Assembly: GCA_945866245.1 (NCBI GenBank)
Contig: CAMBGW010000002.1
Coordinates: 1 to 32,795, forward strand
DNA length: 32,795 nt
Direction: 5' to 3'
From: Verrucomicrobia subdivision 6 bacterium
GTDB taxonomy: Bacteria; Verrucomicrobiota; Verrucomicrobiia; Methylacidiphilales; Verrucolacustridaceae
Part shown: in pieces, positions 8,809-14,586 of the stretch
Layout of the letters: the number at the start of each line of letters is the position of its first letter
How positions within the stretch are numbered: the first letter of the stretch is position 1
Notes under the pieces: generated by a model
Told to the model about the DNA's origin: nothing
What the model saw: only the letters and a program-made list of their open reading frames with translations
Databases searched by the model: none
Program-made: the position numbers and the translations under genes

Positions 8809-9468
8809 CTAACCTGTCTCCTCACTCGCCTTTCCATTTTTAAAAAATGCTTTTTTGTCCGGTGCTCCACTTTCCTTCCACTCCACCCACCAACCGTCCG
8901 GAACCCCTTTTTTATAGTTCGTCTCCTGCCTTTTTTTTCCACTTTCCCACCAGACAACAAAGGTTCCACTTCTCTCCCCCTGCTCATACGTTCCCACTCC
9001 CTTCCGATTCCCACTGGTAAACCACGTCTCCACGGCTCCATGTCGCTTGCCCGCACGCCAAGAGGTTCGCCGCTGCATTTTCCCATTTGGATACCACTCC
9101 GTCGCGGGCCCATCGGGTAACCCTTGGTGAAAGCGCGTTTCTTGAACCAACTGCCCCTTCGCATTCCAAAGCCTCGCCCGCCCCTCCCGCACCCCTTTTT
9201 CAAAATGCGCTTCTCCCTCCATCTGCCCATTCGCAAACCAGCTCCGATAGGCCCCGTGCATCCGCCCCTGCCAAAACTCTGCCTCGGTCTTTTTCCCGGC
9301 CACTTGAGTGACCGCCGCCCCACTGAAAGGCTCCTTCTCACCCTGCCGATAAAACAGATCCCCTCGCCCTTTCAACTCGCCCGCAGGAACCACCTCTCCT
9401 GAGCGCTCCATTCCCAAAGCCACTACTCCCGCCAAGAGACACAATGATATAAATATTTTCGAACTCAA
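8809..9468 (-). CDS. YwqK/MORN-like repeat protein, probably exported
   Basis: Repeats of the form G-x-W(Y/F)xNGxxxxxxxxxxGxxxGxxxxW (SWFANGQMEGEAHFEKGVREGRARLW; EWYPNGKMQRRTSWRAGKRHGAVETW; VWWESGKKRQETNYKKGVPDGWWVEW). Start revised to TTG at 9468 (4-nt TTGA overlap with the upstream gene). The longer provided ORF extends through the upstream gene in another frame. Confidence 0.75.
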   Translation of the reverse strand: MSSKIFISLCLLAGVVALGMERSGEVVPAGELKGRGDLFYRQGEKEPFSGAAVTQVAGKKTEAEFWQGRMHGAYRSWFANGQMEGEAHFEKGVREGRARLWNAKGQLVQETRFHQGLPDGPATEWYPNGKMQRRTSWRAGKRHGAVETWFTSGNRKGVGTYEQGERSGTFVVWWESGKKRQETNYKKGVPDGWWVEWKESGAPDKKAFFKNGKASEETG

Positions 9469-9818
9469 TGGGCTAGGCCAGCCAAAACCGTTACCCGATG
9501 GGTGATCTGCACCAGATTTTCGGGCACGATCCGCTCCGCCGTGATCGTGGGATGCAACTGGTCCGGCCGTGCGTCCAGCTTGATTCCCGGCTCGTACTCG
9601 TCCGAAAAAATCAGATCGTTGACGTAATCCCGTCCGCCGTTTCTTCCGGTCCATTTCCAATATAAGTCCCTTAATTTTCGCTCCGATTCAATCAAGATTA
9701 CTGAAACCACCGTTCCTTTCAATTTCATCGTCAACTCTCGATACGCAGGAAACCACGTGGGGGGCTCGGTGAGCTCCCCGCGAATGATCAGCGTGGGTTG
9801 GCTGCTCAGATTTCGCAC
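9465..9818 (-). CDS. Hypothetical protein
   Basis: 117 aa ORF from GTG. It lies directly upstream of, and its stop overlaps the start of, the YwqK-like gene. No recognised domain. Confidence 0.5.
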   Translation of the reverse strand: MRNLSSQPTLIIRGELTEPPTWFPAYRELTMKLKGTVVSVILIESERKLRDLYWKWTGRNGGRDYVNDLIFSDEYEPGIKLDARPDQLHPTITAERIVPENLVQITHRVTVLAGLAH

Positions 9819-9874: not shown

Positions 9875-10390
9875 ATGCCGTTTGCCGATTGCCCTCTTTT
9901 TCGCCATCCTAAACCGGTGATACGCACTACTCATCCTCATCCTCGGACCCGCGCCGCAACCCGCCCTTTGTCCCAGGAGATTGTCCGGATTCTCCGCTTC
10001 GGATTTGTCGGTGGCTTTGGCACCCTGCTCAATGCCCTCCTCATGTGGGGACTTCTCTCCCTTGGCAGCACTTTCTTGGCCCTGAACCCTAGCGGCCACC
10101 GAGTTGCCACGGCCGCAGCCTTCATCGCTTGGATCATCTGCTGTGGGGGAAATTTTCTTTTGAACTCTGCCTGGACCTTTCGGGCCTGGCCCCCCTCTTG
10201 GCACAAAGCCCAGCAGTACTACCTCTCCGCCGCCTTGGCCTTGGTCTTTCAACTCTTTCTTCTAAATTTTCTTCTTCTCGTTCTGGAAACCGATCGCCCG
10301 ATCCAAACTGCTGTCCTCAACGCCGTAGCGGTCGCCACCGGCGCTCTCCTGAACTACCTCTTCGCTTCTCTTTGGGTCTTCCGTAAATGA
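9875..10390 (+). CDS. GtrA-like family membrane protein (exact start uncertain)
   Basis: ILRFGFVGGFGTLLNALLMWGLL...NFLLNSAWTFR...NAVAVATGALLNYLFASLWVFRK, typical 4-TM GtrA pattern. Confidence 0.85.
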   Translation: MPFADCPLFRHPKPVIRTTHPHPRTRAATRPLSQEIVRILRFGFVGGFGTLLNALLMWGLLSLGSTFLALNPSGHRVATAAAFIAWIICCGGNFLLNSAWTFRAWPPSWHKAQQYYLSAALALVFQLFLLNFLLLVLETDRPIQTAVLNAVAVATGALLNYLFASLWVFRK

Positions 10391-11241
10391 AATTCTCTCA
10401 AACTCAATCCAACTTCTACTCACCTCGTGGCGAAGATTTTCCCACCGCTCTCTCCTCCACCACCCACCTAGGAATCGGTGCACATGCGGATGACCTCGAA
10501 ATTCTCGCCTTCCCAGGAATCTCCGCCTGCTATGGCCACGCAAAAAATCGTTTCTCCGGTATAGTCGTCACCGATGGCGCTGGCGCCCCCCGAACCGGTG
10601 CCTTCGCCGCGATGAGTAATGCGGAAATGATTCCCCAACGCCAAAAAGAACAGCGTCAAGCTGCCGATCTCGGACAGTACGCCTCCGTCATCCAACTGGC
10701 TCACCCCAGCAGTGCCGTTCGACAAGCGGATCGATCCCAAGTTGTCGCGGACTTGGTAAAGATCCTCGAATCGACTCGCCCCCATGTCCTCTATCTTCAC
10801 AACCCGGCAGATCGCCACGAAACTCACCTCGCCGTCCTCCTGGCTTGTCTGGAAGCTCTTCATAAAGTTTCTGCTGCGGCTCACCCCAAAGAGATCTACG
10901 GGTGCGAAGTTTGGGGAGATCTCGACTGGGTTCCTGCCTCCCACATCGTGCGACTGCCCTGCCACGCCCCGGCAGCCCTGGGCAGTTCTCTTCTCAACTG
11001 TTTTCAATCCCAGATCGAGGGCGGCAAGCGGTATGATCGAGCCGCGTTGGGGAGGCGCCATGCGCAAGCCACCTTTGGCAACCCAACTCAGCCCGATTCC
11101 GATGAGGAAATTGTTCTGGCACTCGATCTTCGCCCACTTCTTAAAACAAAAAGTTCTCCCACCGAATTTCTTGCCCCCACTCTCGATCTCTTCCGTAAAG
11201 AAACGCTCGCTCGCCTCGAAGCCCTTTCCGCAAAGCCATGA
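10387..11241 (+). CDS. PIG-L (LmbE-like) family deacetylase
   Basis: IGAHADDLEI near the N-terminus (AHPDDxE-like), GIVVTDGAG, LYLHNPADRHETHLAV zinc-site-like motif. ATGA overlaps at both ends. Confidence 0.82.
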   Translation: MKFSQTQSNFYSPRGEDFPTALSSTTHLGIGAHADDLEILAFPGISACYGHAKNRFSGIVVTDGAGAPRTGAFAAMSNAEMIPQRQKEQRQAADLGQYASVIQLAHPSSAVRQADRSQVVADLVKILESTRPHVLYLHNPADRHETHLAVLLACLEALHKVSAAAHPKEIYGCEVWGDLDWVPASHIVRLPCHAPAALGSSLLNCFQSQIEGGKRYDRAALGRRHAQATFGNPTQPDSDEEIVLALDLRPLLKTKSSPTEFLAPTLDLFRKETLARLEALSAKP

Positions 11242-13190
11242 AGAATCTGCACTCCTCGGTGACGGAGGCGACCCAACGTCTCCTCGGCTTTCTACAACGC
11301 ACTCAGCTTCCAGACGGCAGCTGGTCCGTCCCGTATACTGGGCCAAACTTTCTTCTTCCGCTCTATGTCATCACTACCTACCTCACTCACCACTCTATCT
11401 TGGATGAGGAGCGACCCCGCTTCGTCGCTGGTCTTCTTCGGCCCCAACTCGCAGACGGATCGATCGGTCTACATGAGGAGTCGGTTCGCGGTGCTGTCTT
11501 TACCAGCGCCATCTCTTACGTCGCCCTTCGCATCCTTGGAGAAAAAGCAAAACGACCGGAGCTGACTCGCCTTCGTGACTGGATTCACGCATCTGGTACC
11601 CCTGTGAAAGCAGCCGCTTGGGGAAAATTTATTCTTTCGATTCTCAATCTCTACGACTGGTCGGGTGTCACCCCTGTCCCTCCTGAACTGTATCTTTTAC
11701 CGAAATGGGTTCCGGTCCAGCCGATCAACATCTCGGGTTATGTCCGAATCGTTTATCTCCCCATGGCCTACTTTTACGGAAGGCGCTGGCAGGCCCCCCT
11801 TGATCCCCTTCTCAAGGAGCTACGCAGTGAACTTTTCCCACAGGGATTCGATCAGATCGATTGGCCCAAGCACCGCGCAGATCTGGCTTCCACCGACCAT
11901 ATTGTGCCGGAAAGTCTCCTCGTTCGGATTGCCATGCCCCTTGTGCGCCAGCTTGAAAAGTTCATTCCTGCCTTTCTTCGCCGTAAAGCTCTCCGTCTAA
12001 CCTACGAGCATATCTGCTATGAGGATGAGCAGTCCGAATACATCCGCCAAGCACCGGTGAACGCCTGCTACAATACGCTGGCACATTTTGTCGAAGGTCA
12101 AACCAATCGACTGCACCGCAGTTGGCAGGAGCTGCCCCGATACCTCTGGAATCATACCGACCACATCGCGTGCCAAGGCTTCACCTCATCCAAAGTCTGG
12201 GACACTGCTTTCACATTGCAGGGTATGACCCATCTGGAATTAAACCTTGCCCCTAAAAAATCGATTCAAGAGGGATGTCGGTACTTAGTGGAAAATCAGG
12301 TGATCGACGAGTTGCCCAACCCCCGACGATACCACCGCCTCCCTCGAAAAGGGGGTTGGCCCTTCAGTGAGCGGAGAAACGGGTGGTCGATTGCTGACTG
12401 CACAGCAGAAAGCTTGCTGGCTCTGGTTGCGGCTCGACCTTTTCTCAATGCACCGACCGCCAAGAGTGTCCTCCAGGATGGAGTCCGCTTTATTTTGAGC
12501 TATCAAAACAGGGATGGAGGCTGGGGAAGTTGCGATCGTGTCGTCGGGCCCCTTTGGATTGAAACCTTCAACGCATCGCATGTTTTTGCCGATATCATGG
12601 TCGACCACTCCTTTGCCGAATGCACCGGCTCGGTCCTTTCGGCACTGGCACTGATTCGCCAGCATGATGCAGAGATGGAACGGGGCGGGGTGGATCGTGC
12701 GATCCAGGAGGGCATTCGCTACTTGAGTGAGACACAACGTCCTGACGGCTCATGGGAAGCGGTTTGGGGAATCTGTTTTAACTATGGGACTTCTTTCGCA
12801 ATTCCCGGCCTTCGCGCGGCGGGTTTGCCGATCGATGATCCTCGAATCGTCCGCGGGCGGAATTTTCTTCTCTCCCAACAGCTAGCAGATGGTGGCTGGG
12901 GCGAGAAACCCGAGTCCTGTCTGGAACGTCGGCCGATTCCGACGTCACACGGTCTGGTCGAACCCACCGCCTTGGCGATCATCGCGCTCCTTGCCAGCGG
13001 CCCCAAAGAAGACCCATCCATTCAAAGAGGATTAGAGTTCCTCATCAAAAATCAGCAAGAGGATGGTGATTTTCCACCTCAACCGATCCCTGGGCTTTTT
13101 TATCGAACCACCCTAATTCGTTACGACCACTATAAGCGCGCCTTTTCCCTGAAAGCCTTCGCTTCCTACTTGAAAAGTGAGTCGCCCTAA
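11238..13190 (+). CDS. Oxidosqualene-cyclase-type triterpene cyclase (squalene/oxidosqualene cyclase superfamily, DCTAE class)
   Basis: GWSIADCTAESLLAL (Asp387), FNASHVFADIMVDHSFAECTGSVLSALAL, DGSWEAVWGICFNYGTSF, ADGGWGEKPESCLERR, GDFPPQPIPGLFYRTTLIRYDHYKRAFSLKAF: all align with lanosterol/cycloartenol synthase blocks. No SHC DXDDTA motif. Confidence 0.92.
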   Translation: MKNLHSSVTEATQRLLGFLQRTQLPDGSWSVPYTGPNFLLPLYVITTYLTHHSILDEERPRFVAGLLRPQLADGSIGLHEESVRGAVFTSAISYVALRILGEKAKRPELTRLRDWIHASGTPVKAAAWGKFILSILNLYDWSGVTPVPPELYLLPKWVPVQPINISGYVRIVYLPMAYFYGRRWQAPLDPLLKELRSELFPQGFDQIDWPKHRADLASTDHIVPESLLVRIAMPLVRQLEKFIPAFLRRKALRLTYEHICYEDEQSEYIRQAPVNACYNTLAHFVEGQTNRLHRSWQELPRYLWNHTDHIACQGFTSSKVWDTAFTLQGMTHLELNLAPKKSIQEGCRYLVENQVIDELPNPRRYHRLPRKGGWPFSERRNGWSIADCTAESLLALVAARPFLNAPTAKSVLQDGVRFILSYQNRDGGWGSCDRVVGPLWIETFNASHVFADIMVDHSFAECTGSVLSALALIRQHDAEMERGGVDRAIQEGIRYLSETQRPDGSWEAVWGICFNYGTSFAIPGLRAAGLPIDDPRIVRGRNFLLSQQLADGGWGEKPESCLERRPIPTSHGLVEPTALAIIALLASGPKEDPSIQRGLEFLIKNQQEDGDFPPQPIPGLFYRTTLIRYDHYKRAFSLKAFASYLKSESP

Positions 13191-13240: not shown

Positions 13241-14515
13241 TTACGATTTCGTGCGAACCCAACCGGCCATGGCGTAGGCCATCGGCAGACGTATCCAACT
13301 TGCGATTGAGGCCAGATCGGCACCCATCGTAGTCGTATTATCCCGACCCCTCCACGCACCAATCAGTGCCTTCAAGAATGGCCCTGCGAAGGTGAGGAAC
13401 GAACGACCATTCCCCATCAACAAGCCCATCGTCCGGTCTCTCTCTTTTTGGTCATTGCGCCAAAGGGAAACAACCGCCCGCCGAAGCGATTGGGAAAAAG
13501 CATCCTCTTTCGAGAAGCAGTCATACAAAGCACGAGAAAGTAGCTCGGGCACGCGACAAGCCCTGCGACGACTGCGTGCAAATTCCCGGAAATCTTTTTT
13601 CTCCACAAGCTCCATCGCATCCACCAGCCCATTGGTGATCCCAGTCGCCGTCAACGGATGTGTATGTCCCGCAGCATCCCCAATCAAAACCCGATGCCCG
13701 TTGCCGTAGTCCGCCCGTGCCAAGAAGTGATTGGCCTGCCAACGCAGATGACCACCCCGAATCTGCTCCTCACACGGTTTCCTCCAAACGGGCGGCAGCG
13801 TATCCCGCGTCGCCGCGATGAGCCATTCCGGATCTTTCATTTCTGTTTTATATTTTAAGGGAACATCGACGCAGATGCGGACAACGGAAGGGGCAATTTC
13901 GTATCCCAATAGAAAACTCGGCTTCCCTAAAAAAACATGGCCATATTCCGGATACGGAGCTTTGACTCCTTCCAGAAGGATTCCCGTCATGGCAGACATC
14001 GCCTTGTGGGATCCAGAGCCACGCAAACTTCTCCGCACCACGCTCGACCGCCCATCCGCACCAATCACTCGGCTGGCTTCAACTCTTTCCCCACTCTCTA
14101 AAGTCACGCCAGCGTCATCCACCGACGCAACCCGCACCCCTTGCCGAAATGTTACCCCTTCGGTCTGCGCAACGACTTGCCGCATTTCATCGACCAAATC
14201 TCCGTGATGAAATGCCAAACCCCTCTGCCCTTCCACGTAATCTAATTTTACCGGCGACTCCCCATGCCCGGGATACACCACGAAACCACGCCCTTGGGGC
14301 CTTCCCTGCATCGCCGTGATCGCATCAAATCCCAACTTCTTAAGCGCATCGACCCCTTGCGGATGGAGCCACTCTCCCGCAAAACGTTTTCTACTTTTCC
14401 CCTGTTCCTCAGCCTCCAACAAAACCACTCGCTGGCCCGCCAGCGCATACGCCCGCGCCACCGCACAACCCGCAGGCCCTGCTCCTACCACCACGATATC
14501 TGTGTTTGTTGTCAT
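13241..14515 (-). CDS. FAD-dependent squalene epoxidase (squalene monooxygenase)-like protein
   Basis: IVVVGAGPAGCAVARAYALAGQRVVLLE; AGEWLHPQGVDALKKLGF; GLAFHHGDLVDEMR; RVIGADGRSSVVRRSL; HRVLIGDAAGHTHPLTATGITNGLVDAMEL (compare the SQLE blocks GRxFHHGRF and GDAxNMRHPLTGGGMT). ATG at 14515 preferred over TTG at 14518. Confidence 0.78.
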   Translation of the reverse strand: MTTNTDIVVVGAGPAGCAVARAYALAGQRVVLLEAEEQGKSRKRFAGEWLHPQGVDALKKLGFDAITAMQGRPQGRGFVVYPGHGESPVKLDYVEGQRGLAFHHGDLVDEMRQVVAQTEGVTFRQGVRVASVDDAGVTLESGERVEASRVIGADGRSSVVRRSLRGSGSHKAMSAMTGILLEGVKAPYPEYGHVFLGKPSFLLGYEIAPSVVRICVDVPLKYKTEMKDPEWLIAATRDTLPPVWRKPCEEQIRGGHLRWQANHFLARADYGNGHRVLIGDAAGHTHPLTATGITNGLVDAMELVEKKDFREFARSRRRACRVPELLSRALYDCFSKEDAFSQSLRRAVVSLWRNDQKERDRTMGLLMGNGRSFLTFAGPFLKALIGAWRGRDNTTTMGADLASIASWIRLPMAYAMAGWVRTKS

Positions 14516-14586
14516 CAAAATTGCCCCTTCATCCCTAGCACCGATTCTCAGAACACCAAGTAAAAGGAGCCGTGCCCTATGCTAAA

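Follow-up and report, generated by a model that had tools for sequence, protein, structure and literature searches.

Background

The closest described relative of the enzyme studied here is the oxidosqualene cyclase (OSC) of Eudoraea adriatica, a marine member of the Bacteroidota, whose products, according to the work of Banta et al. 2017 (PNAS), are reportedly eudoraenol and adriaticol, two arborane triterpenols. In the same work, a lanosterol synthase from a bacterium is said to have yielded arborinols after four of its residues were exchanged, and the abstract is said to have already foreseen freshwater producers. To our knowledge, the one characterised bacterial arborinol producer is a marine Flavobacteriaceae species, and we know of no planktonic producer for the isoarborinol of lake sediments; a search of the open-access literature for isoarborinol in lakes found no paper. 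Arborane biomarkers occur in rocks that predate flowering plants, so that their source is often ambiguous (PMC10646143). The plant isoarborinol synthases of wheat (TaIAS) and rice are plant-type enzymes of independent origin, for which we expect the same product class as for the cyclase described below (PMC9169793).

Here we analyse a stretch of 32,795 nucleotides (the window) from an uncultured planktonic bacterium of the freshwater LD19/BACL9 clade of Verrucomicrobia. Named loci of its genus are labelled Verrucomicrobia subdivision 6 or BACL9, and their sources are lakes and brackish water. Two public metagenome-assembled genomes (MAGs; loci L022 and L023) carry the titles Candidatus Paceibacterota and Akkermansia muciniphila, which are evidently wrong, their contigs being syntenic with this verrucomicrobial genus. 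The original describers of the clade already noted its hopanoid capacity, in passages that do not mention this cyclase (PMC4699468).

Results and discussion

An oxidosqualene cyclase in a conserved neighbourhood

The open reading frame at 11238-13190 encodes an OSC (Table 1). Its product passes the TIGR01787 model (480 bits, cut-off 322.7), scores 563.9 bits against TIGR03463 (2,3-oxidosqualene cyclase), below the curated cut-off of 851, and at 220 bits does not reach the cut-off of the hopene_cyclase model (431). It matches human OSC (1W6K) with E 4.6e-125 in phmmer, and its predicted structure (pLDDT 94.2, pTM 0.92) has as best structural match the same human enzyme with lanosterol (TM 0.94, rmsd 1.9). 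Both the OSC fold and the DCTAE acid motif with its cysteine partners are present, the catalytic residues Asp455, Cys456 and Cys533 of the human enzyme being retained as Asp387, Cys388 and Cys462. We rejected an assignment as squalene-hopene cyclase, because the motif is DCTAE and not DXDD and a separate hopene cyclase gene lies elsewhere in the genome (G000:C4), together with two genes of the squalene/phytoene synthase family.

Table 1. Features of the cyclase locus (positions in the window; residue equivalents in human numbering unless marked CAS)
Feature	Position	Strand	Basis
MORN-repeat protein beside the cyclase operon, position conserved across the genus	8809-9660	-	
GtrA/DPMS-type membrane protein, 4-base overlap with the PIG-L gene	9875..10390	+	PF04138; synteny
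PIG-L-type deacetylase, 4-base overlap with the cyclase start	10387..11241	+	PF02585; upstream of cyclase across genus
OSC, arborinol (eudoraenol)-synthase type by residues and tree, 650 aa; acid motif DCTAE at Asp387	11238..13190	+	PF13243/PF13249
Tyr33 = Tyr98 (B-ring boat Tyr), kept	11334..11336	+	alignment
ISGYVR (Ile165-Arg170) replacing LWCHCR; Ser166 = Trp230, Tyr168 = His232	11730..11747	+	alignment
Phe315 = Thr381 / CAS Tyr410	12180..12182	+	alignment
NGWSIADCTAE, Asn381 to Glu391, including catalytic Asp387-Cys388	12378..12410	+	alignment
Cys432 = Tyr503 (Eudoraea: Val)	12531..12533	+	alignment
Tyr622 = Asn697 (Eudoraea: Tyr)	13101..13103	+	alignment
Squalene epoxidase homologue, convergent with cyclase	13241..14518	-	PF08491 1.4e-21; best PDB match 6c6n squalene monooxygenase 2e-25

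Wherever contigs of the genus reach, the gene order is cimA, MORN, GtrA, PIG-L and OSC, followed by the convergent squalene epoxidase, CHASE2 and obg. A squalene epoxidase family match occurs in all 19 genus genomes searched, adjoining the cyclase in most, and in one of 11 other genomes of the same order; the homologue in the window likely supplies 2,3-oxidosqualene. The E. adriatica gene is likewise adjacent to its cyclase, but the two are divergent there, whereas in the window they are convergent, with PIG-L and GtrA genes upstream of the cyclase. The window epoxidase is about 23% identical to that of Eudoraea and 37-38% to that of Methyloceanibacter; cyclase and epoxidase may therefore differ in history. 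The GtrA-like gene probably shares an operon with the PIG-L gene, for whose product no relative with a solved structure was found. The PIG-L deacetylase is a possible tailoring enzyme and, by analogy with hopanoid tailoring, the two proteins could modify a glycosylated triterpenol.

A different arrangement is seen in two Bacteroidota loci (L090 1408-4827, minus strand; L093 7-3537, plus strand), where a single frame of about 1140-1180 residues fuses squalene epoxidase (PF08491) to OSC, as a check of the domains confirmed. The cyclases of L090, L091, L092 and L093 are unusual in their active site, with Met at Tyr98, WYCHTR, Ala at 381 and Phe at 697.

The cyclase groups with the Eudoraea enzyme

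The gene was found in each of the 20 same-genus genomes searched, fragments included, and the best matches in nearly all of them are 75-86% identical to the window copy. Outside the genus, the closest cyclases are those of E. adriatica and its kin (43-47% identity), followed by myxobacterial, Methyloceanibacter and spirochaete OSCs (37-42%). At a threshold of E 1e-120, a search of 388 Verrucomicrobiota genomes, among which the other genus members are not listed, gave no further cyclase relative besides the query genome, and 399 Pseudomonadota genomes likewise gave none at a strict threshold. In a 42-row tree, drawn from a comparison set without the characterised bacterial lanosterol synthases of Methylococcus and Gemmata, the genus and Eudoraea cyclases are sister groups in one clade (support 98/100). 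We considered whether this clade was an artefact of common active-site residues and rejected the idea, as a tree rebuilt without 27 diagnostic columns still recovers it at 100/99. Judged by its sequence, the window cyclase belongs to the arborinol-synthase type known from bacteria, as a new and deeply diverged member.

Active-site residues

Residue equivalences, given in human numbering, were taken from a phmmer alignment to 1W6K and a MAFFT multiple alignment that includes more than 50 OSCs; the superposition of the model on 1w6k indicates that this alignment is structurally sound. The sequence-only reading of the locus had placed Tyr33 at the Tyr98 site, ISGYVR at the MWC(H/Y)CR site with Ser166 for Trp and Tyr168 for His, Phe315 at the CAS Tyr410 site, and Asn381 and Ile385 at CAS His477 and Ile481 (human Cys449 and Val453). 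All of these residues fall where it had put them, and the codons that it gave for Tyr33 (11334-11336), Tyr168 (11739-11741) and Phe315 (12180-12182) are correct. Within the ISGYVR motif, human Cys231, Cys233 and Arg234 correspond to Gly167, Val169 and Arg170. Beyond the residues listed in that reading, Tyr503 is replaced by Cys432, Asn697 by Tyr622, Ile335 by Gln271, Trp590 by Ser519 and Glu504 by Asp433. The cyclase thus shares with human lanosterol synthase the fold, DCTAE, Tyr98 and the cation-pi aromatics (Trp387, Phe444 and Trp581, retained as Trp321, Phe376 and Trp510), but differs from it at Trp230, His232, Thr381, Tyr503 and Asn697. In place of the set Trp230, His232, Tyr503 and Asn697 that marks sterol-type OSCs we find Ser166, Tyr168, Cys432 and Tyr622, so that of His232 and Tyr503, the pair supposed to carry out deprotonation, neither is left. 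The myxobacterial and Methyloceanibacter OSCs, of sterol type by their residues, are similar in family, Tyr98 and DCTAE, but have WCHxR, Tyr381, mostly His449, Tyr503 and Asn697.

The same comparison sets the genus and Eudoraea apart together. Trp and His occupy sites 230 and 232 in all sterol-type rows that cover them, whereas all covering genus and Eudoraea rows have ISGYVR. Among the 29 other OSCs, Trp230, His232 and Tyr503 do not vary and Asn697 hardly does; neither the genus nor Eudoraea keeps any of the four. Phe315, Asn381 and Tyr622, like ISGYVR, are the same in Eudoraea and in every genus copy covering them, and ISGYVR, Phe315 and Tyr622 occur in none of the 29. Eighteen columns are common to the genus and Eudoraea and absent from those 29 OSCs, six of them falling within a list of 30 positions that we take to be the active site of 1W6K (Fisher p 9e-5). 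The pocket residues are unchanged among genus copies that are only 75-86% identical, and because every genus member covering these positions carries identical residues, the pattern exceeds chance. Taken on their own, Asn381 and Ile385 are weak evidence, because the H477N change in CAS favours lanosterol.

Of the Eudoraea-specific pocket residues, Ile229, Ser230, Gly231, Tyr232, Val233, Phe381, Asn449 and Tyr697 are identical in the window, as are Tyr98 and Asp504, and Tyr503 is lost in both enzymes. The sequence-only reading had named the Eudoraea enzyme as a comparison, and it proved to be the nearest outgroup. The window enzyme is 46% identical to it and unlike it at four positions of the pocket region, with Cys432 for Val at 503, Ser519 for Cys at 590, Ile385 for Val at 453 and Ser384 for Val at 452; with 43-47% identity to the Eudoraea group and these four differences, the product outcome could therefore differ.

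Proposed product and alternatives

Of the 19 genus genomes, 18 lack cytochrome P450, that of the window among them (as a positive control, it was found in five of seven OSC-bearing genomes). The lone P450 of the remaining genome (L086 2678-3946, genome G015) lies on a 4.1 kb contig and is possibly contamination. The ERG4/ERG24 family was not found in the genus, a result with a weak control, as ERG24 was found in one of the seven OSC-bearing genomes. The genome of the window is a fragmented MAG, 78% complete, so that genes missing downstream in it alone say little, and the genus-wide pattern helps; because of these absences across the genus, canonical sterol demethylation is unlikely.

We consider it very probable that the cyclase converts 2,3-oxidosqualene to a five-ringed, arborane-type triterpenol with a hydroxyl group at C-3 (eudoraenol, adriaticol or isoarborinol type), and not to lanosterol or cycloartenol. 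Squalene would come from HpnC/HpnD and their partners and the epoxide from the convergent neighbour, as their families suggest. By the roles known from human OSC, Asp387, backed by Cys388 and Cys462, would protonate the epoxide, and Tyr33 would favour a boat-shaped B ring, as in sterol cyclases. The changes of Trp230 to Ser and Asn697 to Tyr would reshape the pocket, and the loss of both His232 and Tyr503 would take away the base that supposedly terminates the path to lanosterol; with the base lost and the pocket remodelled, the cation would go on to expand ring D and close ring E, losing its proton elsewhere. In this freshwater LD19/BACL9-type verrucomicrobium, the product probably serves as a membrane lipid alongside hopanoids, for which the genus also has genes.

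A tetracyclic protosterol (lanosterol, parkeol or cycloartenol), made despite the substitutions, would agree with the retained Tyr98 equivalent and DCTAE, with a fold closest to lanosterol synthase and with the known effect of H477N in CAS; the replacement of His232, Trp230, Tyr503 and Asn697, together with a genus that has neither P450 (18 of 19 genomes) nor ERG24-type reductase, makes it highly improbable, although the latter point is not decisive, given that Gemmata makes unprocessed lanosterol. We rejected a sterol synthase because of the active-site residues, the tree and the missing P450s. Another pentacyclic skeleton, of fernane, amyrin or lupane type or undescribed, appears highly improbable: plant pentacyclic synthases, too, typically carry Tyr where the human enzyme has His232, and Cys432 and Ser519 are absent in Eudoraea, but 8j5z, the plant pentacyclic synthase of the comparison set, shows Asn in place of Tyr98, WCYCR, and Lys at 697 and is distant in the tree, and the overall signature of the window cyclase is that of Eudoraea. 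It is hardly credible that we are dealing with a binning artefact or with a decaying gene whose active site is relaxed, as a fragmented and incomplete MAG might suggest; the frame is intact, the gene recurs in all 20 genus genomes searched, fragments included, the pocket residues are invariant among diverged copies, and the gene keeps a fixed synteny with cimA, obg and other housekeeping genes. We rejected decay and misbinning on this conservation and synteny. The residues and clade shared with Eudoraea, with sterol demethylation machinery not found in the genus, thus support the chair-boat-chair fold and pentacyclic, arborane-like outcome that the sequence-only reading had proposed; of its two options, the arborane is favoured and the undescribed skeleton is less likely.

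Conclusions

Lake bacteria of this clade probably make arborinols, five-ringed lipids, instead of ordinary sterols, as the residues and phylogeny of their cyclase suggest. The enzyme class is already known; what is new, as far as found in the open-access literature, is that it can be assigned to a planktonic clade widespread in fresh water, together with Cys instead of Val at position 503 and a conserved operon with PIG-L and GtrA genes, which may serve to modify the product. The foresight of freshwater producers attributed to Banta et al. lowers this novelty. At 46% identity to the Eudoraea enzyme, the cyclase offers a natural second test of the pocket residues that set the arborane outcome. 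Much more tentatively, and as an extension that we hold to be doubtful, LD19-clade Verrucomicrobia might, via Cys432, Ser519 and the neighbouring differences, make either isoarborinol itself or an arborane isomer not yet described, on which the co-transcribed GtrA and PIG-L genes possibly act by glycosylation and de-N-acetylation, and might be a major planktonic source of lake-sediment arboranes. Through this locus, an arborinol-type cyclase is linked to LD19, a defined freshwater clade of global distribution, and the question of the lake source thereby becomes directly testable.
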